Shown here: piece after piece, positions 2,487 through 20,621 of the stretch
How the letters are laid out: each line of letters begins with the position of its first letter
Position numbering within the stretch: position 1 is the stretch's first letter
DNA from: Zavarzinia sp.
GTDB taxonomy: Bacteria; Pseudomonadota; Alphaproteobacteria; Zavarziniales; Zavarziniaceae
DNA length: 37,456 nucleotides
Direction: 5' to 3'
NCBI GenBank assembly: GCA_025869435.1
Contig: JAOZVS010000137.1
Coordinates: 1-37,456, forward strand
Position numbers and translations under genes: made by a program
Notes under the pieces: generated by a model
Seen by the model: the letters and a program-made list of their open reading frames with translations, nothing else
Told to the model about the DNA's origin: nothing
The model's database searches: none

Positions 2487-3758
2487 TCAGGCCGACCGTC
2501 GCGCCTCGGGCGAGACTGATTCGCCGCGCCCTTCGATCAGGCTTTCAACGACGAAGGCCGCATCCCGGGCGATGCCGGAAAACCGGCCCGAGCCCCAGGT
2601 GTGCAACCACGGCAGGCCGAGGAAGCACAACCCCGGCACCGACGAGACACCCCGCTTGTGGGTCGGATAGCCGCGACCGTCGAAGACCGGGACCTCGACC
2701 CAGGTGAAATTGGGCCGGAAGCCGGTCGCCCAGATCACGCTGGAAATTCCCGCCGCCGCAAGGTCAAGCACGCCGCCGCCCTCCCCCGCCGCCGGATGCC
2801 AGGCCGGGACATAGGGCGGATCTTCCGGCGCCGCGATCCCCTGTTCGGCCAGATAGGCGTCGATGCCTTCGCGAATCCGGTTGTAGGTCGCGTCGGCGGC
2901 ATCGAGATTGGCGGCGAGATCGTCGCCGAAGATCATCGCGCCATCGGCGACATCCTTCAGGCGGCCGTGCAGCGCCATGCCTTCGAGCGCGTGGCGGCGC
3001 AGGTCGATCTCGCGGCCGCCGCCGCGCCCGGTCAGATAGTGGTTGGCCTTGCCGCGCACCTTCTCGCCCAGGGGATGGCGCTCGACCGGCAGGTCGTAAT
3101 GGCCCATGTCGTGCAGCCATTCGACGGCGTCCCGCCCGCGATAGCGGCGCGGCGAGCGCGGCGCGCTGCCGACGCAAAGATGCACCTTGCGCCCGTCGAT
3201 CTTCAGATCCTCGGCGATCTGGCAACCCGACTGGCCGGAGCCGACGACAAGCACGGCGCCCGGCGGCAAAGCCTCGCTGTTGCGATAGCGGGAGGAGTGA
3301 ATCTGCAGGATGTCGCGCGGCAGGCGCTCCGCCACCCGGGGGATGTTCGGGATGTGATAGCCGCCGACGCTGACGATGACCTGGTCGGCGGTATAGGTGC
3401 CGTCACTGGTCTCGACCACGAAGCCGCCTTCGCCCCCCTGGCGCAGGGCGGTGACCGCCACGCCTTCACGCAGGGGCGGCTCGGTCCTGGCGATGAAGGC
3501 ATCGAGATAGGCGAGGATCTCGTCCTTCTTCATGAAGCCGAAGGGATCGGCGCCGGCATAGGGAAAATCCGGCAGCTGGCACTGCCAGTTCGGCGTGACC
3601 AGGCAGAAATTGTCCCAGCGTTCCTCGCGCCAGGCGTGGCCCCGGCGGTTTTTCTCGAACACGAGGTGATCGATGCCGCGCTGCTTCAGGAAATAGGAAG
3701 CGGAAAGGCCGGCCTGGCCGCCGCCGATGACGAGGACTGGATAGTGGTTGCTGGTCAT
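2487..3758 (-). CDS. nitH: Nit1C flavin-dependent oxidoreductase (MSMEG_0569 family), NitH
   Basis: A 423-residue class B flavoprotein monooxygenase-like enzyme. Two Rossmann dinucleotide motifs are visible, VIGGGQAGLSA near residues 10-20 (FAD) and VVGSGQSGCQIAEDL near 171-185 (NAD(P)H). An ATGFRPNF motif near the C-terminus is typical of these monooxygenases. Its neighbours identify it as the flavoprotein of the Nit1C cassette (MSMEG_0569 family, NitH). The substrate is not known from sequence. In cyanide-assimilating pseudomonads the cassette as a whole is required for growth on cyanide. Its ATG (3756-3758) overlaps the nitG stop as ATGA. It is the last gene of the seven-gene operon. Confidence 0.9.
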   Translation of the reverse strand: MTSNHYPVLVIGGGQAGLSASYFLKQRGIDHLVFEKNRRGHAWREERWDNFCLVTPNWQCQLPDFPYAGADPFGFMKKDEILAYLDAFIARTEPPLREGVAVTALRQGGEGGFVVETSDGTYTADQVIVSVGGYHIPNIPRVAERLPRDILQIHSSRYRNSEALPPGAVLVVGSGQSGCQIAEDLKIDGRKVHLCVGSAPRSPRRYRGRDAVEWLHDMGHYDLPVERHPLGEKVRGKANHYLTGRGGGREIDLRRHALEGMALHGRLKDVADGAMIFGDDLAANLDAADATYNRIREGIDAYLAEQGIAAPEDPPYVPAWHPAAGEGGGVLDLAAAGISSVIWATGFRPNFTWVEVPVFDGRGYPTHKRGVSSVPGLCFLGLPWLHTWGSGRFSGIARDAAFVVESLIEGRGESVSPEARRSA

Positions 3759-4057
3759 GGGAGTTCTCCCTGGATGTGCAAGGTCTCGATGGTGACGACG
3801 GCCGAGGCGGGCTCGGCGATGGTGGCGGCGGCCTGTTCGATGCGGGCGAGCTGGCCCAGGGCCCGCGAACAGGGGAAGCCATGGCGCGCCCGCACCCGCT
3901 CGCTCGCGGCGCGAAGGCCGGCGCGGCTGCGGGCGAGGAAGTCCTCGAGCGGATAGCTCGTGCCGGCGACGAAATAATGGGCGATCGACGATGACGGCGA
4001 ATAACAGGTCTCGACCGCCCCATCGGGCCAGCGCACGCGGAACCAGACTTCAGGCAT
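3755..4057 (-). CDS. nitG: Nit1C small conserved protein (MSMEG_0570 family), NitG
   Basis: A 100-residue cytosolic protein beginning MPEVWFRVRWPDGAVETCYS. This matches my memory of the MSMEG_0570/'nitrogen starvation response' family found only in Nit1C clusters. No catalytic motif is evident. The N-terminal half looks beta-rich and the second half (residues 38-80) looks helical and arginine-rich. It overlaps nitF by 8 nt and nitH by 4 nt, so it is translated as part of a coupled operon. Its function is unknown. A role as a partner or carrier for the neighbouring enzymes would be a guess. Confidence 0.85.
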   Translation of the reverse strand: MPEVWFRVRWPDGAVETCYSPSSSIAHYFVAGTSYPLEDFLARSRAGLRAASERVRARHGFPCSRALGQLARIEQAAATIAEPASAVVTIETLHIQGELP

Positions 4058-5033
4058 CCTCTCGATCTCCCTGCGGGACGGGGCCGCAGCCGATCAGCGG
4101 CTGGTCGGCGAAATTCCAGAGCATGGCGGACTCGCGCCCGTCGGCGATGCGCACGAGACCGCTGGCATCACAGCCGCCGACATCGGCGCAGGCGATGCCG
4201 GCGGCGGCGAAACGCCCGCTCACCGCATCGACATGGTCGGGCGGAACGGCGAGGACATAGCCGAAGCTGGGAAAGACGGTCAGCCAGCGCTCCAGCGCGA
4301 CGCCCTCGGGCCGGGGAATCCTCGTGACGTCGATCGTCGCCCCGAGGCCCGAGCATTCGAGCAGCATCAGGGCCGTGCCCACGGCGCCCGCCATGCTGAT
4401 ATCCTTGGCGGCATGGGCCAGCCCGTCCTCGGCGAGGCCGGGCAGGATCTCGATCTGCGCCCGCAGCCGGGGCGGCAGCGCGGTCGAGCTGCAGTCCCAA
4501 TAGGGATGGGGATCGCGGAAATGGCCGCGCAGGTCGATCGCCATCAGCAGGCGATCGCCGGCCTCGGCGTCGAAACTGGTCAGCAGCGCTTTCGCCCGAC
4601 CAATGATGGCGACCGACAATTGCTCGCCGCCAGCGTTCCGCGTGTTGCTGTGACCGCCGACGATCGGCACGCCATAGGCAGTGCTGCCCGCCGCGAGACC
4701 CGACAGAATGGGGGCGGCATGGTCGCCATCCCGGCTCCACAGCGCGTCGACGACGGCGATCGGCCGGCCGCCCATGGCCGCGATATCCGAGACATTGACC
4801 ATGACGCCGCAATAACCGGCGAACCAGGGTTCCGCCGCGACGAAATCGGCCATGAAGCCTTCGATGGCGAACAGGAGGTAACCGTCGCCGTCCGGAATGG
4901 CGGCGCAATCGTCACCCACCGCGATCGGAGAGCCGCCGCCAAGGCCAAGGGCCGTCATCACGGCGGAAATATCGCGCTTGTGGCCAAGACCGCGCGCGCC
5001 GGTCAGGCGCAGGGCGAGATCCGCGATGCTCAC
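4050..5033 (-). CDS. nitF: Nit1C AIR synthase-like protein (sll0787 family), NitF
   Basis: A 327-residue member of the PurM/SelD/ThiL (AIR synthase) superfamily, which bind ATP and phosphorylate carbonyl, amide or selenide substrates. Visible signatures are VGDDCAAI near residue 40 (nucleotide/metal binding), the NVSDIAAMGGRP motif near 80-90 and a glycine-rich VGGHSNTR near 120-127. The start chosen is GTG at 5031-5033, which forms a GTGA overlap with the nitE stop. The same frame stays open far upstream but that part is antisense-like shadow of nitE and nitD. In many genomes this domain is fused behind the GNAT domain (MSMEG_0567). Here the two are separate genes. The reaction is unknown. 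Confidence 0.87.
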   Translation of the reverse strand: MSIADLALRLTGARGLGHKRDISAVMTALGLGGGSPIAVGDDCAAIPDGDGYLLFAIEGFMADFVAAEPWFAGYCGVMVNVSDIAAMGGRPIAVVDALWSRDGDHAAPILSGLAAGSTAYGVPIVGGHSNTRNAGGEQLSVAIIGRAKALLTSFDAEAGDRLLMAIDLRGHFRDPHPYWDCSSTALPPRLRAQIEILPGLAEDGLAHAAKDISMAGAVGTALMLLECSGLGATIDVTRIPRPEGVALERWLTVFPSFGYVLAVPPDHVDAVSGRFAAAGIACADVGGCDASGLVRIADGRESAMLWNFADQPLIGCGPVPQGDREDA

Positions 5034-5572
5034 ATCCGCCTCCCGATCAGCACGGCGAAGCCCGCCTCGGCATCGGATACCGGGGCATAATGATCCAGAT
5101 CCGCTTCCATGAAGTGATGCGGCCGGCCGTGCAGGTCGGAGACGTCGAGCGTCGCCCAGTGCAGGCGGTGGAACAGCGGCGCGTTCTGCGCCTGGACATG
5201 AGCGGTGAAGCGCCGGCAGCCGCGCGCAGCCGCCGTGCCGACCGCCAGCCGGATCAAGCCGCTGCCAAGCGCCCCCAGCCGCCGCCAGGCCGGCTCCACC
5301 GCGAGGCGCGAGCCGGCCCAGTGGCCCGGCGCGTCCTCGTGGATGCGGACGGTGCCGACCACCTGATCGGGCACGCCGAAGATGGGGGCGAGCGCGACCA
5401 GCGGCAGCGCGCGGGCATCGGTCTCGTCGCGGTCGTCGCCCGCGAAGATCTTCTGTTCCCGGCAGAACACCTGGCGTCGCAGCGCGGCCGCGCCGGCCAC
5501 TTCCCAACGGGCGATGGCCAGTTTCACCCGGGCTTCGCCGGTGACATAGGGCAGGACCGGCTCGAAGATCAT
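5030..5572 (-). CDS. nitE: Nit1C GNAT-family N-acetyltransferase (MSMEG_0567 N-terminal type), NitE
   Basis: A 180-residue GNAT-fold protein. The N-terminal part contains RRQVFCREQKIF (about 32-43), a pattern shared with autoinducer-synthase-like GNATs. VVGTVRIHED forms a central strand, and SRLAVEPAWRRLGALGSGLIRLA carries the acetyl-CoA-binding signature region (shown in part). The C-terminal stretch with LFHRLHWATL fits the closing helix and strand. The acyl acceptor is unknown. The start ATG (5570-5572) lies 3 nt after the nitD stop, and the stop overlaps the nitF GTG. As a stand-alone GNAT it corresponds to the N-terminal half of the fused MSMEG_0567 protein. Confidence 0.87.
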   Translation of the reverse strand: MIFEPVLPYVTGEARVKLAIARWEVAGAAALRRQVFCREQKIFAGDDRDETDARALPLVALAPIFGVPDQVVGTVRIHEDAPGHWAGSRLAVEPAWRRLGALGSGLIRLAVGTAAARGCRRFTAHVQAQNAPLFHRLHWATLDVSDLHGRPHHFMEADLDHYAPVSDAEAGFAVLIGRRM

Positions 5573-5575
5573 GGC

Positions 5576-6673
5576 TCAGACCTCGAAGCTCGACAGGGCG
5601 GAACAGGCGCCGCATTTGCCGCAACCGGCCTTGATTTCGGACGACAAAAGGCCGGCGGCCTTCAGCATCGCGCCGAGCGGTTGCAGGATATCGCGCATGA
5701 AGGCGGGCGACGGCGTCGGATGGTCTTCGAGCGGCGTGCCCGAAATCGGCACGAAGGGCACGACGAAGGGATAGACGCCAAGCTCGATCAGCGTCTCGGC
5801 GATCGACAGGATCGCGTCCCGCGTATCGCCGAGGCCGGCGAGAATATAGGTCGAGACCTGGCCCCGACCGAACACCGGCACCGCCGCCCTGAAGGCGTCG
5901 AGATAGCGGCTGACGGGGACGCTGGCCTTGCCCGGCATGATCTCGGCCCGAAGCGCGGGCGTGACCACTTCGAGATGCATGCCGAGCGTATCGATCCCCG
6001 CCGCCTTCATGCGGGTGAACCAGGCATCGTCGTCCGGCGGCTCGCACTGGCCCTGGATCGGCAGGTCGACCGCCGCCTTCACCGCGAAAGCGCTTTCGCA
6101 CAGCACGGCGGCACCGCGATCCGTGACATTGGGCGTTCCCGTCGTCATCACCATGTGCTTGACACCGTCGAGGAGGACAGCCGCGCGGGCGACTTCCGCC
6201 AGTTGTTCCGGCGTCTTGCGGGCGACGGTGCGGCCGGCGGCCAGGCTCTGGCCGATCGCGCAGAATTTGCAGGTCTTGGTCCGGCTCTGATAGCGGATGC
6301 AGGTCTGCAGGATGGTGGTCGCCAGCACGTCACGCCCATGCAGCGTGGCGATCTGCGAATAGGGCACGCCGTCCAGCGTCTGCAGCTCGTAGAAGCGCGG
6401 CTTCAGCGGGAAGGAGACTTCCCCGACCGCGACGCCGTCGCGGCGGATGGTCGAGACGCCGGCCGCGTCGGGCTTCTCCGCGACATAGGGCGAGGCGAAG
6501 GCGGGCGCGGTGTGAACCGGGACCATCACCGTCTGGCCCTCGACCGTCATCGCCTTGTGGTCGGACGGTCCGGCGCCTCCGCGCCGGCTGGCAGCACCCG
6601 CGTCCGGATCAGCCAGCCGAACCCCGAAGGACTGCAATTCGGTGATCAAGGTCTGCTGCGTCGTCGGCTTCAT
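5576..6673 (-). CDS. nitD: Nit1C radical SAM protein (MSMEG_0568 family), NitD
   Basis: A 365-residue radical SAM enzyme related to the biotin synthase group. The [4Fe-4S]/SAM cysteines are C125, C135 and C138, in [14 protein letters not shown] (C-x9-C-x2-C). This is wider than the usual CxxxCxxC and I take it to be characteristic of this family. A second cysteine knot, CGKCGAC (C351, C354, C357), sits at the C-terminus and may hold an auxiliary Fe-S cluster. The N-terminal [10 protein letters not shown] block (33-42) is a conserved family feature in my recollection. It starts inside nitC, with a 65-nt overlap, and is followed 3 nt later by nitE. The reaction is not established. It is the chemically most demanding step in the cassette. 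Confidence 0.9.
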
Positions 6674-7649
6674 GGGCGTCGCTCCGCGGGCTGGAGGGCA
6701 GGGACAGGGGATCGAGGACCGGCACCACGGGGCGGGCCGGCCGGTTGTCGAGGTGGAGGGACAGGAGGTCGGGCCGGGCGTAATGGCCGATGGAATCCAT
6801 CATCCGCTTGCGCTTGGTGATCAGGGCCATGTCGAGATCGGCGATCAGCATCCCCTCCCCTTCGGTCAGGGGCGGCACCAGATGCTTGCCCTCGGGGCTG
6901 ATGATCGCCGTGTGGCAGCCACCGCGCAGGCCCTTCTGCAGCTTGGGATCGGGGGTGATGGCCTCGATCTGCTCTTCGGTCAGCCAGCCGGTCGCGTTGA
7001 CGACGAAACAGCCGGATTCGAGCGCGTGGTGGCGGATCGTCACCTCCATCTGCTCGCCGAAGATCGGCCCGACCATGGAGCCGGGAAACTGGCTGGCGTG
7101 GATTTCCTCGTGCTGGGTCATCAGGGCATAGCGCGCCAGCGGGTTGTAGTGCTCCCAGCAGGCGAGGGCACCGAGACGGCCGACCGCGGTATCGACGACG
7201 CGAAGCCCGGCGCCGTCGCCCTGGCCCCAGATCATGCGCTCGTGATAGGTCGGCGTGATCTTCCGCCGCTTCAGCACCAGGGCGCCGTCGGCATCGAACA
7301 CGAGCTGCGCGTTGTAGAGCGAGCCATGGTCCCGCTCGTTGACGCCGAGGACGACGACGATGCGGGCCGAGGCGGCGGCCCGGGAAACCGCCTGGGTTAC
7401 CGGCCCCGGCACGACCACCGCATGCTCGTAGAGCCTCAGATGGTCGGACCCGGCGAGGACCGGCGGGTGGACGAAGGAAAAGTAGGGGTAATAAGGCACG
7501 AAGGTCTCGGGAAAGACCACGAGCTGCGCCCCCTTGCCCGCGGCGTCGGCGATCGCGTTGCAGACCCGCTCGAGCGTGCCTTCCGGCCGCGCGATATCGG
7601 GGGCGATCTGGACCGCCGCCGCCCTGACCACCCGTCCACCCGCGCTCAT
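6609..7649 (-). CDS. nitC: Nit1C nitrilase (Sll0784 family), NitC
   Basis: A 346-residue carbon-nitrogen hydrolase. The catalytic triad is visible as E48 in [10 protein letters not shown]130 in KRRKITPT and C164 in [10 protein letters not shown]. The CWEHYNP context indicates a true nitrilase subgroup rather than an amidase. It forms the core of Nit1C. The in vivo substrate in other bacteria is probably a nitrile formed within the pathway, and cyanide is the growth nitrogen source reported for pseudomonads. The last 40 residues (after about 305) extend beyond the conserved core and are encoded over the start of nitD. The ATG at 7647-7649 follows the nitB stop by one base. Confidence 0.93.
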
Positions 7650-7650
7650 G

Positions 7651-8133
7651 TCAGAGCGTCCAGGTGTTGAGGATGAAGGCGCCGTCGCGGCGATGGATCA
7701 GGATGAGATCCATCACGTCGAGCGGATTGATCGGGGTGATGCCCGCGATCAGCGAGGGCTCGCCATGGCCATAGAGCGCCTGGAGCGCGAAACGACAGGC
7801 ATAGACCTTGCCGCCCTCGCCCATGAACTTCACGATCTGGTTGTTCATGGCGAGATGGCCGGGAAAAGCCTCGTCGCCCAGCGTCGGGAAGCCGCGCTGA
7901 ATGCCCAGGGTTACACCCGGACCATAAAGCAGAACCGAGGTCTCGAAGCCCTTGCGCAGCAGGCGGGTCGCCTGCAGCAGGTTGACGAGGCCGATCGAGC
8001 CTTCGAAGGCGACGGTGTGGAAGGTGACCAGGGCTTTCTCCCCCGGCTTGGCCTTCACATCCTCGAAGACCTTCTCTTCGTAATTGACGAAATAGTCGCC
8101 CTTCTGATGGGCCGGTGCAGTCACTTCAGGCAT
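7651..8133 (-). CDS. nitB: Nit1C first gene, Sll0783/MSMEG_0572 family nitrogen-starvation protein, NitB
   Basis: A 160-residue protein of the Sll0783 family, which always accompanies the Nit1C nitrilase. It carries no metal or nucleotide motif I recognise. The fold looks alpha/beta ([20 protein letters not shown], then [13 protein letters not shown]), which suggests a DsrE-like or hydrolase-like sandwich. That is an impression only. The chosen ATG at 8131-8133 is preceded by AGGGGAGA at good spacing. The frame continues 20 codons upstream but without a ribosome site. It is the promoter-proximal gene of nitBCDEFGH. In Synechocystis the homologue was linked to nitrogen starvation, which is family knowledge. 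Confidence 0.88.
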
Positions 8134-8202
8134 TACACATCTCCCCTGGGTCCGATCGGCTCGCGCCGGGTGGTGACGAGGGAGATTTTGCAAGCCGCGT
8201 GC

Positions 8203-8252
8203 CAGTCAAATGACTGCACAATCGATAATCAGATTCAATTGAATGCAGTCAA
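8203..8252. promoter_or_regulatory. Left operator cluster, probable MocR-regulator sites at the nit promoter
   Basis: CAGTCAAATGACTG (8203-8216) is a perfect inverted repeat around AA and runs into TGACTGCA (8211-8218). A second octamer in the other orientation, TGCAGTCA, is at 8244-8251, inside AATTGAATGCAGTCAA (8237-8252). The same 16 bases occur inverted at 8584-8599. The palindrome ATTCAATTGAAT (8233-8244) overlaps it. Four octamers in under 400 bp is far above chance. Assignment to the adjacent regulator is inference from position. Confidence 0.65.
8225..8252 (-). promoter_or_regulatory. Candidate nitB promoter
   Basis: Read leftward, TTGACT (8252 to 8247, five of six matches to the -35 consensus) is followed after 16 bases by GATTAT (8230 to 8225, four of six to the -10). 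This would start transcription about 90 bases before the nitB ATG. The -35 hexamer is part of the TGCAGTCA operator, so a bound regulator would touch RNA polymerase directly. Assigned by eye, with no transcript evidence. Confidence 0.5.
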
Positions 8253-8340
8253 TATATACGGTCAATCAGGCCGTTTCAGCGCGACCAGCATTGCTTCATT
8301 TTCGACCAGCGCAAACAGTTTAGGCACCATAAAGCTCAAA

Positions 8341-8355
8341 TTTTAATCATTAAAA
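8341..8355. repeat. Perfect AT-rich 15-bp palindrome
   Basis: TTTTAAT-C-ATTAAAA is a perfect inverted repeat about 90 bases upstream of the putative nit promoter and 260 bases before the regulator gene. It lacks the GC stem and T-run of a terminator, so a protein-binding site is more likely. No regulator is assigned. Confidence 0.45.
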
Positions 8356-8555
8356 GCAGCAATACCGAGCCCCGACATCACCGATTCAAACGCGCCGCAA
8401 CCGTCCCCCGACCGCGAGCGAGGCTAGAGGTGGCGCGGCCCTTGCCCCTTGCGCAGATGCTTGCGCGGGGCTGAACAGCGGCGTTAAATGATGGGGCTGG
8501 CATCTTGCCGGACCGGACTGCCGGGACCGGGCATTTCGCTGGCGCGTTCTTCATA

Positions 8556-8599
8556 TGCAGTCAATTTTGGCAATATGCGCGCCTTGACTGCATTCAATT
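8556..8599. promoter_or_regulatory. Right operator cluster upstream of the MocR-type regulator gene
   Basis: TGCAGTCA (8556-8563) and TGACTGCA (8585-8592) lie 18-61 bases before the regulator ATG, in opposite orientations. The second belongs to TTGACTGCATTCAATT (8584-8599), an exact inverted copy of 8237-8252. Location just ahead of the ribosome site suggests autoregulation. Confidence 0.6.
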
Positions 8600-8616
8600 C
8601 ACATCAAGGTTCACAG

Positions 8617-10014
8617 ATGGCCCGCAAGCTCGTCGGCTGGGTACCCCATATCGGCAAGTCCACCCGCCCGCACTATATCGCCATCGCCGATGCGATCGAG
8701 ACCGACATGCGCGCCGGGCGGCTTGCCCCGAACGATCGCCTGCCGCCGCAGCGCCAGCTGGCCGAACAGCTGGGCCTGAATTTCACCACGATCGCCCGGG
8801 CCTATGTCGAGGCGCAGCGCCGGGGCCTGATCGAATCGCGGGTCGGCGCCGGCTCCTTCGTCCGCACCCTGGCGGCGACGCCCGCGACGCGCCCGGCCCG
8901 AACCGTCCAGTTGGTCGACCTGACCATGAACCTGCCGCCCGAGCCGCAGGACCCCGCCCTGGTCGAGCGGATGCGCCGGGGCCTGGCCGAGATCGGCGCC
9001 GACCTTCAGGCCCTGCTGCGCTATCAGGGATTCGGCGGATCGCCGGCCGACAAGGCGGCGGCCATCACCTGGCTGGCCCGCCACCGGGTGGAAGTGCCGG
9101 CCGACCGGGTATTGATCTGCCCCGGCGCGCATGCCGCGCTGATGGCGATCATGAGCACGATCCTGCGCGCCGGCGATACCATCGCCTGCGAGAGCCTGAC
9201 CTACCCGGGCGCGCGCGCGATCGCGGCGCAATTGGGCCTGACCCTGGTCGGCCTCGCCATGGACGAACAGGGCATCGACGCCGCCGCCTTCGAGGAAGCC
9301 TGCCAGAGCCGGGGGGTGAAGGCGCTCTACTGCAATCCGACCCTGCTGAACCCGACGACGGCGACGATCACCACGCGCCGCCGCCACGACCTGATCGCCG
9401 TCGCCCGGCGCCATGGCGTCAAGATCATCGAGGATGACGCCTATGGCTGCATCCCGGTCTCGCCGCCGCCGGCCTTCGCCGCCCTCGCCCCCGATATCAC
9501 CTATTATATCGCCGGCCTCGCCAAATGCCTGGGCGCCGGCCTTCGGGTCGCCTATCTGGTCGCGCCCGACGTGCGCAGCGCCTGGCCGCTGGCGGCCTTC
9601 CTCCGCGCCTCGACGGTCATGGCCTCGCCGCTCACCGTCGCCCTCGCCACCCACTGGATCGAGGAAGGCGTCGCCGAAGACGTGCTGACCACGATCAGGA
9701 CCGAGTCGCGGGCGCGCCAGGCCCTGGTGCGCGACATCCTGCCCGCCGGCACCTGGCAGGCCGACCCGGAAGGCTTCCATGTCTGGGTCAATCTGCCCGC
9801 GCCCTGGAGCCGGGCCAGCTTCACCGGCCACATGCGCAATTCCGGCATCGGCGTCGTCGGCAGCGATGCCTTCGTCGTCTCGCGCGAGCCGCCGGAAGCG
9901 GTGCGGGTCTGTCTTGGCGGCCTCGCCGATCGCAAGGCGGCCCAGCAGGCCCTCGAATATCTCGCCGATGCCCTGATCCACCCGGCCCCGGCGGCCACCG
10001 CCAGCGTCATCTGA
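8617..10014 (+). CDS. MocR-family transcriptional regulator (GntR wHTH plus class I aminotransferase fold)
   Basis: A 465-residue regulator. Residues about 16-85 form a GntR winged helix (LPPQRQLAEQLGLNFTTIAR; the RAYVEAQRRGLIESRVGAGSFV part follows). Residues 100-460 form a fold-type I aminotransferase-like domain. PLP-anchoring features are retained: K303 in AGLAKCLGAGLRVAYL and the D/Y pair in IEDDAYG (273-276). It may therefore bind PLP and sense an amino compound as an aldimine, as GabR and PdxR do. The start is ATG 8617, preceded by AAGG at 7-base spacing. An in-frame ATG at 8488 would place the operator sites inside the gene and is less likely. Divergent from nitB, it is the natural candidate regulator of the cassette. 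Confidence 0.9.
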   Translation: MARKLVGWVPHIGKSTRPHYIAIADAIETDMRAGRLAPNDRLPPQRQLAEQLGLNFTTIARAYVEAQRRGLIESRVGAGSFVRTLAATPATRPARTVQLVDLTMNLPPEPQDPALVERMRRGLAEIGADLQALLRYQGFGGSPADKAAAITWLARHRVEVPADRVLICPGAHAALMAIMSTILRAGDTIACESLTYPGARAIAAQLGLTLVGLAMDEQGIDAAAFEEACQSRGVKALYCNPTLLNPTTATITTRRRHDLIAVARRHGVKIIEDDAYGCIPVSPPPAFAALAPDITYYIAGLAKCLGAGLRVAYLVAPDVRSAWPLAAFLRASTVMASPLTVALATHWIEEGVAEDVLTTIRTESRARQALVRDILPAGTWQADPEGFHVWVNLPAPWSRASFTGHMRNSGIGVVGSDAFVVSREPPEAVRVCLGGLADRKAAQQALEYLADALIHPAPAATASVI

Positions 10015-10081: not shown

Positions 10082-11122
10082 TCAGGCCAGCGCCGGCACC
10101 GAGGATTCGAAGCCCGGCGTGCCGATATTGACCGGCAGGCCCAGCAGAAAGTTGCGCATCCGGTCGCGGCACAGGTCGGTCGGCGCGATCAGCGTGCGGC
10201 GGCGATCCGAGGGGTCGGGCCGTTTCTGCAGCCAGCCGGTCGAGACCAGTTCGTCGATCTTGCGCATCGCCGTGGTCGACGGCAGCGTCGTCGCGTGACA
10301 GGCCGAGGTCACGGAAACGACCCGGTGCAGCAGCGACTGCTCGATCAGATAGAGCAGGATTTCCCAATTGGCATCGCCATCGACGCAGGACGGCAGCAGC
10401 TTGTCGCGGAAACGGCGCGCGGCCTGCAGCGCCTTGATCCGGTGCAGCATCTCGCCATCTTCCGGCGCCTGGCCCGGCAGGGTGCGCGGCTGACCGATGT
10501 TCAGCCGGTGCACCGGCTGGGACACGGCCGGCTGCGCCTGCATCGGCCCCGAGGAACGGGGCGACGACATGGCCGACGGCGAAGGCGCCGAGGATTCCCG
10601 CGACAGACGAACCGCGGCATTCTCGATGGTCGAGGTCAGTTCCTTGGCCTTGGCCAGGGTCTCCGCCAGCTGCACCGAAAGATCGCGGTCGTTGGGCTTG
10701 CTGTCCCGGCGCTGCTCCAGCGCCTCGGACGCGCGATGGATCGCGGCGACCAGTTGATCGAGATCGACCGGCTTCACCAGGAAGTCCAGCACGCCGAGCT
10801 TCAGCGCATTGATCGCACGGTCGAGGTCGGCGAAGGCCGAGAACAGAATGGTCTCAAAGATACGCGGTGAGCCCCCAAAGTGGCGCAACTCGCGTACCAG
10901 ATCGAGACCACTCAACCCCGGCATCTGCATGTCGGTGACCAGCAGGAAAGGCTCGGCTTCCGCCAGCATGTTGTCCAGTGCCTCGGCGGGCACCGAATAA
11001 GCATGGACGACAAAACCCTTCAGCTTCAGGAAATCGCCAACTTCCTCGACAATTGAGGCATCATCGTCGATCACATAGACAGGCGTTGAGATCGTGTTTG
11101 AACGATTCATACCAGGCATCAT
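10082..11122 (-). CDS. Response regulator with receiver and MarR-like winged-helix output
   Basis: A 346-residue protein. Its N-terminal receiver carries the acidic pair in VIDDDAS, phospho-acceptor D64 in VTDMQMPG and the conserved lysine K117 in FLVKPVD. A serine/proline-rich linker follows (about 150-215). The C-terminal part (about 240-330: TTLPSTTAMRKIDELV, then LQKRPDPSDRRR with a wing) looks like a MarR-type winged helix rather than an OmpR, LuxR or Fis output. The ATG at 11120-11122 follows GGGGAGGT at about 10 bases. Upstream in-frame ATGs lack such a site. It is divergent from a histidine kinase/receiver pair, which are probable partners. Targets are unknown, and the adjacent Tad operon is an attractive guess. 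Confidence 0.82.
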   Translation of the reverse strand: MMPGMNRSNTISTPVYVIDDDASIVEEVGDFLKLKGFVVHAYSVPAEALDNMLAEAEPFLLVTDMQMPGLSGLDLVRELRHFGGSPRIFETILFSAFADLDRAINALKLGVLDFLVKPVDLDQLVAAIHRASEALEQRRDSKPNDRDLSVQLAETLAKAKELTSTIENAAVRLSRESSAPSPSAMSSPRSSGPMQAQPAVSQPVHRLNIGQPRTLPGQAPEDGEMLHRIKALQAARRFRDKLLPSCVDGDANWEILLYLIEQSLLHRVVSVTSACHATTLPSTTAMRKIDELVSTGWLQKRPDPSDRRRTLIAPTDLCRDRMRNFLLGLPVNIGTPGFESSVPALA

Positions 11123-11555
11123 TGGCGAACCCACCTCCCCCCTTTGGGCGGACATAAGACCTTTATGCCCAATCGCGCGCGGAATGGAAGCGAATTCATC
11201 CAACCCGGCGGATGCCGCACCATCGGCGGGCATCACGGTTCAGTGTCTAACCAAAGATCGTGAACAAATCGCAAATTGGTCCAAAACAGGATGATTCGCG
11301 AGACGCGATGTGAAGGAACCATGTAATTTCATGCGATTGGAGAATGGGAGCCGGGTTTACGCCCTGTTCACCTAGTTTCCCTAGACTTCGCCGGTCGGGG
11401 TGTGGCGGGGCAGCCGCAGTGTGATTCCGGCGGCCAGCGACCGCGGGGCGACCGCGCCGTCGCCATGAGGGGGTTCTGGCAGTGTACGATCGGATTCTTC
11501 GGATCATCCAGGAACGGGCCGCATTCCCGCGGTTCTTCGGTCAGGGAGCATGACC
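11123..11555. other. Divergent promoter region between response regulator and histidine kinase
   Basis: A 433-bp spacer without a credible gene. The open frames across it are short and have no ribosome site. Promoters for both directions must lie here. The left half (11230-11330) is relatively AT-rich. No repeat or operator stood out strongly enough to name. Confidence 0.5.
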
Positions 11556-16548: not shown

Positions 16549-17922
16549 CTATGGCCGGCCTTCGAAACGTCCCGCGCCGCCACCGGCCGGCGTGACACCA
16601 CCGACCGCGGCCAGACGTTCGGCGAAGGCCGAATGGCGCGTGACCATGACGAAACTGCCCTGACCCGGCGACGCCGGATTGTCGCGATAGCGGAAACGCT
16701 CGTTCTGCACGATGGTCTCGCCTTCCATGCCGACGACCTCGGCGATGGAAATCACCTTGCGGACGCCGGACGACAGACGCTGGACCTGAACGACGACCTG
16801 CACCGCCGAGGTGATCTGCTTGCGCACGGTCGCGACATTGGCCTGCATTCCGCCGAAGCCGAGCAGCAGCTCGAGCCGGCTCATGGCGTCCTGCGGTGAA
16901 TTGGCGTGGACCGTCGCCATCGAGCCGTCATGGCCCGTGGTCATGGCCTGGACCATCTCGACCGCCTCGCCGCCACGGATTTCGCCGAGGATGATGCGAT
17001 CCGGCCTCATGCGCAGGGCATTCTTCACGAGATCGCGGGCGGTAATTTCAGGCGTGCCATCAGCCGACGGCGGCCGCGTTTCGAGGCGCACGACATGGGA
17101 CTGGCGCATCTGCAGCTCGGCCGCGTCCTCGATCGTGACGATACGCTCCGTCGCCGAGATGTAACCCGACAGGATATTGAGCATCGTGGTCTTGCCCGAC
17201 CCCGTGCCGCCCGAGATCAGCATGTTCAGGCGGCCACGGACGCAGGCGGCGAGATAATCCACCATCTCCTGGCTGATCGTGCCGGTACGGACCAGGTCAT
17301 GGATCTTCAGCGGGATGCGCTTGAACTTGCGGATCGAGACCGTGGCGCCATCGAGGGCGATCGGCGGGATCACGATGTTCACGCGGCTGCCGTCCTTCAG
17401 GCGGGCGTCGACGAAGGGCGAGGCCTCGTCCACGCGGCGGCCGATCGGGCTGACGATGCGCTGGATGATGTTCATCAGGTGGGCATCGTCGCGGAACCGC
17501 GTCGTCACCCGCTCAAGCACGCCCGAGCGTTCGACATAGATGCGGCTGGGGCCATTGACGATGATGTCGTCGACCGTTGTGTCGGCGAGCAGCGGCTCGA
17601 GCGGGCCGAGACCGACGATCTCGAAGAACACATCGTCGAGCAGGCGTTCGCGCTCGGCGGCATTGAGGGCGACGCCCGCGCCGGCGACGACGACGGAAAT
17701 GGCGCGGCTGATCTCGCTGCGCACCACTTCGCCATTGGCCTTGTCCGGCGTGAAGCCCCGCTTTTCCAGATAATCATGGACGATGGTCAGGGCCCGGAAC
17801 TTCAGCTCCTGGTACAGCGGCGAGGTATAGATATCGCCATCCGCGCGCCCGCCGGGCAGATTGGTCGGGAAAGCCGTCGCCCCGAGGGTAGTCCCGCCGC
17901 CCGGCCCGCTCGTTTCACGCAT
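16549..17922 (-). CDS. cpaF: Tad pilus assembly/secretion ATPase CpaF (TadA)
   Basis: A 457-residue type II/IV secretion ATPase. The N-terminal domain covers about 35-215. Walker A is GGTGSGKT (238-245), the Asp box lies in [12 protein letters not shown], Walker B is in [15 protein letters not shown], and the His box in [14 protein letters not shown]. It powers Flp pilin assembly and possibly retraction through TadB/TadC. The overall length and motif set are normal for the family. A glycine-rich tail of about 20 residues follows the conserved core. It is 21 bases after cpaE in the same operon. Confidence 0.96.
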
Positions 17923-17943
17923 CGGTCACTCCTGCCTGACAGC

Positions 17944-19197
17944 TCAACGCGTACCCGCCCGGCCGATGCCGAGGCGGGAGAGAATGCCGCCATGGTTGCC
18001 GGCGGCGATGCGCGCGGCGACCGCGGCCGAGGCCGCCGCCGGCGGCGCGCCGCTGGCCGGACCGATGGCGACCGCGTCGACGATGGCGCGAACGGCCCGC
18101 GCGAAGGGGCTGCCCGTCTCGGAAGCCAGGGTCCCCAGATTGCGCTGACCATCGACGACGACCCGGTCCTCGGGCACCAGGAAGGGCCGGCCCTTGGCCC
18201 GCACCGCCGTCGCGATTTCTTCCGCCGTCGGCCGGAGACGTGCAACGTGACGCGAGACGACCAGGGTGAAGTCCGGGTCCTTGTTGATCTGGCGGCGCAT
18301 CCGGTCGAGCGCGGTGGACGCGCCATGGATCGAGGTCACCGACTGATCGACCACCAGGATCGAGGCATTGGCATCGACGAAGATCCGGTCGGCGACCCGG
18401 GGGGCGAGGGCCCGGTTCACGTCGATGACGATCGCCGTGAAATAGGAGCGCAGCACGTCGACCAGCTGGGCGAGGTCGCCCTGACCCGCGATCTGGGCAT
18501 TCTCGTCGTCGATCGCGAGCGGCAGGATGAAGAGCCGCGGCGACTTGGTCTGGGCGAAGGCGCCATCGATCAGCGTCGAGTCCAGGCGACCGAGATCGCC
18601 CAGGGCATCGGTCATGAAATAGGACGCCTTGATGCCGAGGAGATCGACGGATTCCGATGGCGGAAAGCCGAAGTCGAGCAGCAGCACCCGCTCGGTCGGA
18701 CCGGCGCGACGGGCCAGTTCGGCCGCCATGGCGACGGCGATCGAGGTCGAGCCGACCCCGGCCTTCGGCCCCATCACCGCGAGGATGCGGGCGGAATTGC
18801 TGCCGCGCTTGGCCGGCCGCGACTGCAGCAGCCAGTCCATCTGCGCGATCAGATCGTCGGCCGCGAAATCCTTGTCGATCACGTCGTTGGCCCCGGCGCG
18901 CATGGCCGGGATCAGCGAGGTGGCCGAGATGTTGTAACTGGCGACGATCAGCGGCGTCGCCGGCTGTTCAGCCTTCAGGCTGATGATCAGCTCGGTGATG
19001 TTGCGGCCATCCCAGGCGACATCGTCGAGATCGACGATGATCGCCTCGACGCCGGTCGACTCGATGAGACCGCGCAGGGTCTCGAGCTGGGGCAGGCCGC
19101 GAACGATGGAGCAACGGGAGAACAGGGCGGACGTCACCCGTTCGGCGAAGTCTTCGTCGCTGGAAACGACGAGGATGGCGCGACGTTCTGTGGTCAT
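17944..19197 (-). CDS. cpaE: Tad localisation ATPase-like protein CpaE (TadZ), deviant P-loop
   Basis: A 417-residue protein with a receiver-like N-terminal domain (D56 in AIIVDLDDV) and a MinD/ParA-like domain (about 135-375). The P-loop reads GPKAGVGSTS (143-152). The signature lysine K145 is kept, but the lysine before the final T/S is replaced by serine. TadZ/CpaE proteins place the Tad machine at the pole, and several members have atypical Walker A motifs. The C-terminal 45 residues are alanine-rich. The start ATG overlaps the cpaC stop as ATGA. Confidence 0.92.
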   Translation of the reverse strand: MTTERRAILVVSSDEDFAERVTSALFSRCSIVRGLPQLETLRGLIESTGVEAIIVDLDDVAWDGRNITELIISLKAEQPATPLIVASYNISATSLIPAMRAGANDVIDKDFAADDLIAQMDWLLQSRPAKRGSNSARILAVMGPKAGVGSTSIAVAMAAELARRAGPTERVLLLDFGFPPSESVDLLGIKASYFMTDALGDLGRLDSTLIDGAFAQTKSPRLFILPLAIDDENAQIAGQGDLAQLVDVLRSYFTAIVIDVNRALAPRVADRIFVDANASILVVDQSVTSIHGASTALDRMRRQINKDPDFTLVVSRHVARLRPTAEEIATAVRAKGRPFLVPEDRVVVDGQRNLGTLASETGSPFARAVRAIVDAVAIGPASGAPPAAASAAVAARIAAGNHGGILSRLGIGRAGTR

Positions 19198-20621
19198 GGC
19201 AGCAGCCCGTATTGCGGCAGGACATCACGCAGACGGTTACGACCGAGCAGCATGTCGCCATAGGAGGGATCGTAATCTTTCAGGTCGCTGCCCGGCAGCG
19301 GCGGGATCGAGCGCGGATCCATCGGCGAGACCAGGCGCGGCGTCGCGACAATGATCAGTTCCTGGCGCTCGCGCGTGGTCTGCTGGCGCTTGAAGAAGGC
19401 GCCGAGGATCGGCAGATCGCCGAGCACCGGCAGCGCATCATCGGAATCCGCGGTCGAGGACGACATCAGGCCGGCGAGCACGAAGCTCTGGCCGTTGCCG
19501 AGTTCGAGGGTGGAACTCGCGCCGCGCTTCGTGATCGCCGGCACTTCCGTTCCCGCGATGCTGATCGCCCGGCCATAATCGAGATCCGAGACCTCGGGCG
19601 CGAGATTGAGCAGGATGCGGCTGGGGCTGAGCACCGTCGCCGAAACCTTCAGGCGAATGCCGAACTGGCGGTATTCGATGGTGATCGTGTTGCCGTCGCC
19701 CTGGGGCACCGGGATCGGGATTTCACCGCCCGCGATGAATTCGGCGGTTTCGCCCGAGCGCACCAGCAACGTCGGCTCGGCCAGGATCTGCGCCAGCTTC
19801 GCCCCCGAGAGGATGCCGAGGACGACCGAGAGGTCGGAGCCCGGCAACCGCATGAGCACGCTGAGCGCGTCGGATACCGGCGAGACGCCCGAAAGCGCGC
19901 CCGTCAGCTCGGCGCCGGGCGAAGCCACGGCATATTCGAAGCTGGTGCCCGGCCCGGAGCGGAAATCGAAACCGAGGCGCTTCAGCGTCGAGGTCGAGAG
20001 CGCGGCGAACTTGATTTCGACGCTGACCATCTGCTGCTGCATGATCTTGATCTGGTCGCTGACGCCATCGGGGAAATAGCGCGAGGCCATCTGCAACACG
20101 CGGGCATGGGCATCGTTGGAAGGCACATTGCCCTTCAGCGCGACCTTGCCGCCCGCCGCGTCGACGCGAACGCCCGAAAGCTCGGGATCCTCGCGCAGGT
20201 CGCGGGTCAGATCGCCGGTGCCGAGCGGCACGATGACCGGATAGACAAAGGCTTTCTCGCCGCCGACTTCCCAGACGATCAGATTGGTGCGCCCCGGCTT
20301 CAGGCCGAGGAGCAGGATGTCGGTCGGCCCGACCACGCGGCCGGTCACGGTCTCGGGATCGCCGATCGCCACCCGCTCGATCGGGCTGGTCAGGGTCAGC
20401 GGCGTCTGGACCCCCGGCTGGATCACCAGCGAGGGCCGGTTGACGTAATCCGCCGCCTGCGCCACGCCCCGCATCACGCCGGTGGCGGCAGGCAGGGCGA
20501 GGGTCAGGGCGATCGCGGTCGCCGTCGAAAGAACCGCACGGCGAACCTGGCGCATCACGCCTGTCGTCCTGCCGGCGCGCGGGGTCGTTGCAGCCACCCG
20601 AAGCATCATCTTCTCACTCAT
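19194..20621 (-). CDS. cpaC: Tad outer-membrane secretin CpaC (RcpA)
   Basis: A 475-residue secretin subunit with an arginine-rich N-terminus followed by a hydrophobic export signal (about 30-56, AQA-AD cleavage). The order is the short pilus-secretin N domain (LVIQPGVQTPLTL, then DILLLGLKPGRTNLIVW), a BON-like segment (about 140-185) and the secretin core (about 260-450). The core carries VLGILSGAKLAQILAEP and LPVLGDLPILGAFF, the closing motif of secretins. It forms the outer-membrane channel for the Flp pilus. ATGA overlaps on both sides (cpaB and cpaE) show tight operon structure. The very long signal n-region suggests that a later start, for example the ATG at codon 23, is possible. Confidence 0.94.
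   Translation of the reverse strand: MSEKMMLRVAATTPRAGRTTGVMRQVRRAVLSTATAIALTLALPAATGVMRGVAQAADYVNRPSLVIQPGVQTPLTLTSPIERVAIGDPETVTGRVVGPTDILLLGLKPGRTNLIVWEVGGEKAFVYPVIVPLGTGDLTRDLREDPELSGVRVDAAGGKVALKGNVPSNDAHARVLQMASRYFPDGVSDQIKIMQQQMVSVEIKFAALSTSTLKRLGFDFRSGPGTSFEYAVASPGAELTGALSGVSPVSDALSVLMRLPGSDLSVVLGILSGAKLAQILAEPTLLVRSGETAEFIAGGEIPIPVPQGDGNTITIEYRQFGIRLKVSATVLSPSRILLNLAPEVSDLDYGRAISIAGTEVPAITKRGASSTLELGNGQSFVLAGLMSSSTADSDDALPVLGDLPILGAFFKRQQTTRERQELIIVATPRLVSPMDPRSIPPLPGSDLKDYDPSYGDMLLGRNRLRDVLPQYGLLP

Follow-up and report, generated by a model that had tools for sequence, protein, structure and literature searches.

A MocR-type regulator accompanies Nit1C clusters of the Proteobacteria sampled, together with tandem repeats ahead of a sigma54 promoter

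Introduction

The Nit1C gene cluster, nitB to nitH, is widespread in bacteria but poorly understood. It was described in 2005, and in the literature considered here its physiological role has been worked out only for cyanide use by pseudomonads. The regulator of the pseudomonad cluster is reported to be NitA, which is sigma54-dependent (PMC11049912), and the 2005 survey reports that neither genes around the cluster nor sites upstream of it are conserved (PMC1199592). Here we analyse a stretch of 37,456 nucleotides from Zavarzinia sp. (contig JAOZVS010000137.1; this whole stretch is referred to as the window), in which a Nit1C operon is faced by a divergent gene for a MocR-type regulator, predicted to bind pyridoxal 5′-phosphate (PLP) and provisionally named NitR.

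Several described systems come close to this locus. NitA is likewise a divergent neighbour of nitB, and a sigma54 promoter at nitB is also present in the NitA-type locus of genome G550, but NitA belongs to the AAA+ activators, the G550 protein also having PAS domains, whereas NitR has no AAA+ domain. The repressors of ectoine catabolism EnuR, EhuR and EutR have the domain plan, the PLP lysine and most pocket positions in common with NitR, but belong to another clade and have other targets, and the EnuR palindrome ATTGTn6ACAAT contrasts with the tandem direct repeats predicted for NitR. MpaR of Pseudomonas aeruginosa, also of MocR type, is encoded next to ccoN4 and an orthologue of ccoG; it mediates the response of ccoN4 to cyanide, with PLP-cyanide as the signal hypothesised by its authors (PMC10790758). 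Three close relatives of NitR not linked to Nit1C (L108, L142 and L144) also adjoin ccoG; compared by description, MpaR is unlike NitR in being an activator with the motif ATCTGAT, and the part of its description drawn on here reports no action on Nit1C (PMC10790758). BN5_1899, a MocR of Pseudomonas pseudoalcaligenes CECT5344, is divergent from a cyanide-induced cluster that includes the nitrilase Nit4, and a mocR mutant of this strain is reported to express the cio cluster constitutively (unpublished data there) and to have a growth phenotype (PMC8567248). Its cio setting recalls the relatives of NitR that adjoin cydAB; compared by description rather than by alignment, BN5_1899 differs in controlling the cio cluster, and the Nit1C of its strain has NitA. 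Judged by titles and the openings of abstracts, we found no earlier report pairing a MocR with Nit1C, though a mention deeper in the texts is possible, and the word nitrilase is absent from the main text, supplements aside, of the regulon survey by Suvorova and Rodionov (PMC5320631).

Results

A MocR-type regulator is the usual neighbour of Nit1C in the Proteobacteria sampled

The gene in question is:

8617..10014, plus strand: MocR-type regulator (GntR plus fold-type-I aminotransferase), 465 amino acids, PLP lysine K303

Its open reading frame (ORF) runs from an ATG at 8617 to a stop at 10014, divergent from a complete Nit1C operon (nitB–nitH, 2487–8133, minus strand) for which all seven NCBIfam models exceed their cut-offs; the range 8134–10014, singled out in an earlier note on this DNA, comprises the intergenic region and the regulator gene. 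Pfam assigns GntR to residues 22–82 and Aminotran_1_2 to residues 99–440, and detects no AAA+ domain. K303 shares its alignment column with the PLP lysine of Sinorhizobium meliloti EnuR, and lysine occupies this position in 58/58 rows of the clade of Nit-linked regulators (the Nit clade, see below), 16/16 sister rows and 9/9 EnuR-like rows. With an N-terminal GntR winged helix-turn-helix fused to an aminotransferase domain with a conserved PLP lysine, the protein is by its sequence a MocR-subfamily regulator predicted to bind PLP, in agreement with the GntR–aminotransferase hybrid with intact K303 recognised in the earlier note. A search of the PDB returned 25 sequences, mostly distant aminotransferases, with some GntR-type chains and a PLP-dependent regulator-like entry, 7pq9.

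A scan of named genomes with NitB provided the best 80 loci, a sample tilted toward close NitB relatives, which record titles sorted into 37 cyanobacterial and 43 other loci. With 250 bits as the threshold, a regulator homologue was present at 39 of the 43 non-cyanobacterial loci: within ~0.8 kb of nitB in 35, 4.2 kb off in L072 and ~7.9 kb downstream in three Methyloversatilis loci, the four loci without a nearby homologue being three rhizobia and L077, which has no flanking sequence. No homologue above 250 bits was found at the 37 cyanobacterial loci (33 with at least 1.5 kb upstream, four with less), where L028 had a single distant match of 24% identity ~6 kb away. Among 385 genomes sampled from the class, NitB exceeded its cut-off in 10 and the homologue lay beside it in all 10; among 398 genomes sampled from the phylum, 15 of the 16 with NitB carried the homologue beside it, three genomes being common to both counts and weak NitB matches below cut-off (G340 in the class; G471 and G446 in the phylum) being left out. 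In the exception, G550, a sigma54 activator with PAS domains occupies the place of the MocR. Annotated plasmids provide further examples of the pairing in Klebsiella, Acetobacter, Agrobacterium, Methylorubrum and Rhizobium.

By this evidence from gene neighbourhoods, a MocR appears as the usual Nit1C regulator in the alpha-, beta- and gammaproteobacteria sampled, and very probably controls the cluster that it adjoins. The earlier note, which had proposed the pairing and would have taken its occurrence in a single genome as chance, understated its frequency: the homologue recurs at Nit1C across samples, which refutes chance, and is standard in the Proteobacteria surveyed. The note stated correctly that the pseudomonad cluster is under a sigma54-type activator (NitA; PMC11049912), and the contrast that it drew with this activator is right, but the sigma54 promoter persists in most loci, and MocR control and sigma54 control look combined.

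On the Klebsiella pneumoniae IncFIB plasmid L104, Nit1C occurs with a divergent MocR. Klebsiella plasmid records matching the regulator number 416, with Nit1C confirmed in L104, the one checked; of 60 evenly sampled rows, 23 were from Klebsiella, and 20 of these were ~42% identical to the regulator.

A sigma54 promoter precedes nitB

Upstream of nitB, and using the sigma54 consensus TGGCACRN4TTGCW, we identified:

8189..8204, minus strand: sigma54 (−24/−12) promoter of nitB, exact TGGCACRN4TTGCW, 56 bp before the nitB start

This consensus, with at most one mismatch, occurs in 37 of 49 nitB upstream regions (16 exact) compared to 0.4% of shuffled regions, and 35 of the 37 sites end 37–79 bp ahead of the nitB start codon; none was found in 33 cyanobacterial nitB upstream regions. 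RpoN is encoded in the genome of the window (G000:C153, 417 bits, cut-off 277) and was matched in 25/25 whole genomes tested, in 24 above cut-off and in G863 as two pieces below it, with two plasmid records not countable. As a MocR without an AAA+ domain, NitR would need another activator for such a promoter, and so is predicted from its sequence to act at a sigma54 promoter that it cannot itself open. Of the two NtrC patterns used, GCACN7GTGC with at most one mismatch occurs in 16/49 upstream regions (~11 expected), and TGCACCN5GGTGCA with at most two mismatches in 8/49 (1.4 expected). Patterns for NifA and IHF were at or below chance in nitB upstream regions, and perfect inverted repeats numbered 88 there versus 53 in shuffles, nested copies counted.

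Tandem repeats upstream of nitB are candidate operators

Two candidate operators lie in the intergenic region:

8242..8266, minus strand: predicted nitB-side operator, tandem direct repeat ATTGACCGTAT-AT-ATTGACTGCAT, 13 bp spacing
8555..8599, minus strand: predicted regulator-side operator units ATGCAGTCAAT (8555–8565) and TTGACTGCATTCAATT (8584–8599), from a repeat finder

The nitB-side repeat starts 62 bp upstream of the −24 box, and the regulator-side units, directly ahead of the regulator start, probably serve autoregulation. Within the genome, ATTGAMTGCAKTCAAT with at most one mismatch occurs only in the regulator-side units and at 8238–8253, and a genome scan with two mismatches added one further copy, on contig C84. 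In nitB upstream regions generally, the repeat unit is ATTGAnnGnAT, in tandem and on the same strand: same-strand TTGA spacings of 11 bp (16 cases) and 12 bp (15) stand out against 200 shuffled sets, which peak at 6 for any spacing. Tandem repeats were found in 38 of the 49 regions versus 8.6 ± 2.3 (maximum 14) in 100 shuffled sets, and where a −24 box could be recognised (42 loci, at most two mismatches), a tandem directed at nitB starts 37–64 bp upstream of it in 27. The loci are related to each other and these repeat and promoter counts are not independent events; near-identical regions were removed for motif discovery and TTGA spacing, and kept for the sigma54 and tandem counts. Motif discovery gave as best 11-mers mixed forms such as ATTCATTGAAT, with ATTGATTGCAT ranked seventh, and an objective of 808 versus 223–317 in four shuffled sets, which had fewer seeds (80 versus 250), the tandem counts being firmer.

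The repeats follow the regulator. A second set of 15 Nit loci, some of them near relatives of those already counted, had the sigma54 site in 13 and tandem repeats in 13. A strict form of the tandem pattern had five matches, all just before nitB, in four of 10 whole genomes and none in the other six, with no match for its reversed control; in the genome of the window it occurs once, at 8242–8266. The same tandem scan was near chance upstream of non-Nit relatives (3/24, 1.6 expected) and EnuR-like regulators (3/8, 1.1 expected), and found repeats in 2/33 cyanobacterial nitB upstream regions; tandem repeats are missing in G550, whose NitA-type gene is accompanied by a sigma54 site one mismatch away from the consensus. 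The three rhizobia that lack the regulator beside nitB have a sigma54 site (one mismatch) and tandem repeats at the usual places. If the repeats are sites for the regulator, it would be expected elsewhere in these three genomes, and each indeed has one homologue with 54–55% identity, the next best having 31–36%. In a FastTree phylogeny, all three distant regulators fall among the Rhizobium members of the Nit clade, and each adjoins a DUF983 gene. Presence of the regulator hence goes with tandem repeats just upstream of the nitB sigma54 promoter.

An EnuR-like palindrome, TTGAn6TCAA, was also considered as operator. It occurs twice in the window but is missing at L113, whose regulator is 95% identical, and is found in only L087 among the other 48 regions, and was dropped for the tandem direct repeats. 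A looser scan of non-Nit upstream regions was superseded by the stricter rule with shuffles, which gave the near-chance counts above; by eye, units akin to these but distinct from them, for example ATCCATACAAT or CAATATACAGTCAAT, precede several non-Nit relatives.

Nit-linked regulators form a clade separate from EnuR

The top NCBIfam model for the regulator is that of EhuR (NF052286), with 444 bits over nearly the full length, which would favour an orthologue of EnuR/EhuR, an ectoine regulator, located here by accident. We consider this very improbable. The score falls short of the cut-off of the model, 480, and in a tree of 52 regulators a Nit clade (28 rows, support 100/99) is distinct from an EnuR-like clade (eight rows, 100/100) that contains S. 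meliloti EnuR; joining the two was rejected, with a p-value of 0.017 in the approximately unbiased test (p-AU), for groups that had been named from earlier trees. The 28 rows are 23 Nit-linked ones and five non-Nit rows placed there by a larger tree. Moreover, the candidate operators are tandem direct repeats and not the EnuR palindrome ATTGTn6ACAAT (PMC8739950), whose exact form is upstream of one of the eight EnuR-like regulators (L157). A Rhizobium plasmid has Nit1C with its own MocR plus a separate ehu cluster with another, and in the window the linkage is to Nit1C, with no link to ehu or eut met in the part of its genes scanned. By these sequence comparisons, the Nit-linked regulators are a clade separate from EnuR.

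The larger tree has 104 rows, of which 65 make up the Nit clade (58 Nit-linked, seven not), with support of 99 in the Shimodaira–Hasegawa-like approximate likelihood ratio test (SH-aLRT). The Nit-linked rows outside this clade are L106 (Acetobacter plasmid) and L054_2, an additional copy close to the cluster of a Sphingomonas. Placement of L106 inside the clade was rejected (p-AU 0.005); its region has neither sigma54 site nor tandem repeats, and it may have been recruited to Nit1C independently. A tree made before the addition of further rows had 48 of its 50 Nit-linked rows in one group free of non-Nit rows (SH-aLRT 83). The trees omit L032 and L160, not extractable as full genes (L139 likewise in one set), and short or duplicate copies.

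Relatives outside Nit1C adjoin respiratory genes

For the non-Nit relatives outside the EnuR-like clade, mostly ~6 kb or more was examined on each side. In one tblastn search, cydAB, ccoG or DUF983 were nearby in 18 of 25 such relatives versus 0/8 EnuR-like rows, a count that becomes 19/25 with L145 (DUF983 and the phosphoenolpyruvate carboxylase gene, ppc) from a Pfam scan run on the non-EnuR-like rows only; rows with only ~1.5 kb flanks are excluded (L140, L129, L131 and L214; L002, L141, L215, L228 and L231). The corresponding Fisher p-values, 0.0005 and 0.0002, are only descriptive because the marker genes were chosen after the neighbourhoods had been seen. DUF983 genes occur within cytochrome oxidase operons, and cydAB adjoining DUF2474 is of the cyanide-insensitive type. 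Among the ccoG-linked relatives, L108 and L144 branch as sisters of the Nit clade (SH-aLRT 88) and L142 falls inside it, as does L212. L212, from Methylocystis, has cydAB, the regulator and a NitB-family gene in one locus, and L206 has Nit1C with its own regulator and a second MocR with cydAB ~12 kb away.

In L200–L203 and L245–L247, a Nit-clade regulator adjoins a DUF983 gene apart from Nit1C, and DUF983 looks, from these arrangements, like a second conserved target of Nit-clade regulators. Genes for ppc lie beside related MocRs in L108 (by annotation) and L145. In CECT5344, oxaloacetate and cyanide yield a nitrile hydrolysed by NitC (PMC5333837); ppc as a neighbour would fit, because it would supply oxaloacetate, the published cyanide acceptor.

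The ligand pocket is conserved

Pocket positions of EnuR are kept in the Nit clade as N245, K303, F419, R430 and mostly C432 (NitR numbering). All 58 Nit-clade rows agree at the positions matching EnuR Asn244, Lys302, Phe417 and Arg429, and 57 of the 58 have C or S at that of Ser431. In addition, E109, R135, N240 and G435 are invariant in the Nit clade and variable outside, which suggests a ligand specific to this clade.

Discussion

The best explanation overall, and one we hold to be probable, is that Nit1C has in NitR a dedicated MocR, with its own operators, a sigma54 promoter and a gate set by substrate. A NitR dimer would bind the tandem ATTGAnnGnAT units at nitB and also its own promoter, and so regulate both itself and nitB, and an enhancer-binding protein, NtrC being the natural candidate, would open the sigma54 promoter, presumably under nitrogen limitation. 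NitR would add a second, substrate-dependent gate, most likely by blocking the promoter or enhancer contact until a ligand reacts with the PLP–lysine aldimine, and the outcome would be an AND gate of nitrogen need and presence of substrate. The ligand, of which we are less sure, would be cyanide itself or a small nitrile or aminonitrile derived from it. We prefer repression that the ligand relieves, because EnuR and the MocR of CECT5344 are described as repressors, and by analogy NitR is most likely a repressor too.

A number of observations weigh against this explanation or parts of it. MpaR is an activator (PMC10790758), so that repression by NitR is argued from analogy, and MpaR and BN5_1899 are not on the trees, their likeness to the NitR group being one of neighbourhood only. 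The best sigma54 site has at least two mismatches in 12 of the 49 loci (a lack of RpoN as the cause was rejected, RpoN being present in 8/8 tested of these), tandem repeats are absent in 11/49, and L170, with the regulator adjacent to nitB, has neither. The pattern scan established no NtrC enhancer site at the 49 nitB upstream regions. As to cyanide, the marker genes were picked post hoc, DUF983 has no function assigned to it and the search for ppc excluded EnuR-like rows; the flanks fetched for 39 Nit loci contain no match to cydA or cydB, and a DUF983 gene in six; and no ccoG-adjacent relative resembling MpaR was seen by eye among the matches listed for 119 Pseudomonas-type genomes. Finally, conservation of the EnuR amino-ligand positions, R430 included, fits an amino-carboxylate ligand.

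NitR could instead be an activator that, from the tandem sites, serves a sigma70-type promoter distinct from the sigma54 site, which would then be an additional promoter working independently. MpaR does activate, with its motif 61–62 bp upstream of its start sites (PMC10790758), many Nit operators start 61–63 bp upstream of the −24 box, and the 12 loci without a good sigma54 site would be accommodated. On the other hand, repression is reported for EnuR and for the MocR of CECT5344 (PMC8739950, PMC8567248), and some operator-like units reach into the −24 box itself, as in L066 and the Zavarzinia loci, all of which leaves activation an unlikely, if serious, alternative to a repressor at the sigma54 promoter. 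Still less probable, indeed improbable, is a regulator that answers only to PLP or to general nitrogen or B6 status with no signal specific to the pathway: MocRs of vitamin B6 synthesis do use PLP alone as effector (PMC8739950), but the linkage to Nit1C, the strict operators only before nitB and the conservation of positions for an added ligand all argue otherwise.

Regarding the inducer, the earlier note had suggested an amine or amino acid made from or related to the pathway. A dedicated MocR would then sense, as an external aldimine of the kind that EnuR forms with N-alpha-acetyl-L-2,4-diaminobutyrate (alpha-ADABA), a compound that the pathway consumes, passes through or yields. EnuR and GabR have known amino ligands (PMC8739950), the EnuR ligand positions are nearly all invariant in the Nit clade, and E109, R135, N240 and G435 are invariant there but variable outside. 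The pocket is compatible with an amino ligand as well as with cyanide or a nitrile. However, the pocket positions are equally kept in the oxidase-linked sisters and so are no pointer to a Nit1C metabolite, and the neighbourhoods of the relatives indicate cyanide over amine catabolism; we regard the amine as rather unlikely. An inducer of the cyanide type is at least as likely, since respiratory genes, DUF983 or ppc neighbour the relatives, and characterised MocRs from similar surroundings respond to cyanide; by this analogy we put cyanide or a cyanide-derived nitrile at close to an even chance. More speculatively, and less likely than not, the whole large proteobacterial group of MocRs linked to Nit1C, cydAB, ccoG or DUF983 may be direct cyanide sensors, with hydrogen cyanide adding to the PLP–lysine aldimine; its Nit1C branch would gate a sigma54 promoter such that nitrogen is drawn from cyanide only in its presence and under nitrogen shortage. 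Were cyanide the ligand, PLP-based sensors of cyanide would emerge as a broad class, and Nit1C would be tied to the use of cyanide nitrogen well beyond Pseudomonas. The idea of the earlier note that the regulator is a clue to the function of the cluster seems right in any case: a regulator, operator and sigma54 promoter found clade-wide offer a direct handle on Nit1C, and once the ligand is found, the physiological substrate should follow.

The Nit1C operon and other genes of the window

The window is contig C136 of a genome listed as 75.5% complete, and the NitB encoded here shares 93% identity with the protein of Zavarzinia marina. The genes of the operon are:

7651..8133, minus strand: nitB, MSMEG_0572/Sll0783 family (TIGR04044, 285 bits, cut-off 110)
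6609..7649, minus strand: nitC, Nit6803-family nitrilase (TIGR04048, 580 bits, cut-off 503)
5576..6673, minus strand: nitD, MSMEG_0568 family radical SAM protein (TIGR04043, 605 bits, cut-off 304)
5030..5572, minus strand: nitE, MSMEG_0567 family N-acetyltransferase (TIGR04045, 215 bits, cut-off 68)
4050..5024, start approximate, minus strand: nitF, sll0787 family AIR synthase-like protein (TIGR04049, 455 bits, cut-off 321)
3755..4057, minus strand: nitG, MSMEG_0570 family (TIGR04042, 116 bits, cut-off 80)
2487..3758, minus strand: nitH, MSMEG_0569 family flavin-dependent oxidoreductase (TIGR04046, 644 bits, cut-off 498)

The match to nitF corresponds to residues 360–672 of a mechanical ORF, 4050–6101. 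Elsewhere, the last gene of some Nit1C operons encodes an AMP-binding protein (Klebsiella L104, Acetobacter L106), and that of the rhizobial operons L209 and L211 a Pnap_2097-family protein; these are candidates for last steps of the pathway, and neither was recognised in the window.

Convergent with the regulator is a gene (10082–11236, minus strand) for a response regulator that has a receiver domain and, towards its C terminus, a part weakly resembling MarR. Also near Nit1C, secretin-like genes and one for a TadA-like ATPase, below its family cut-off, lie at 16549–20621 (minus strand) and are probably a tad pilus cluster. The same genome has a second EhuR-like MocR, L002 (G000:C65, 1317–2777), whose 459 bits are just short of the cut-off. 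No ectoine genes were recognised in the few neighbouring ORFs scanned around L002, and an EnuR-like palindrome, ATTGTn7ACAAT, with a spacing one base over that published, spans its assigned start at 1308–1324.

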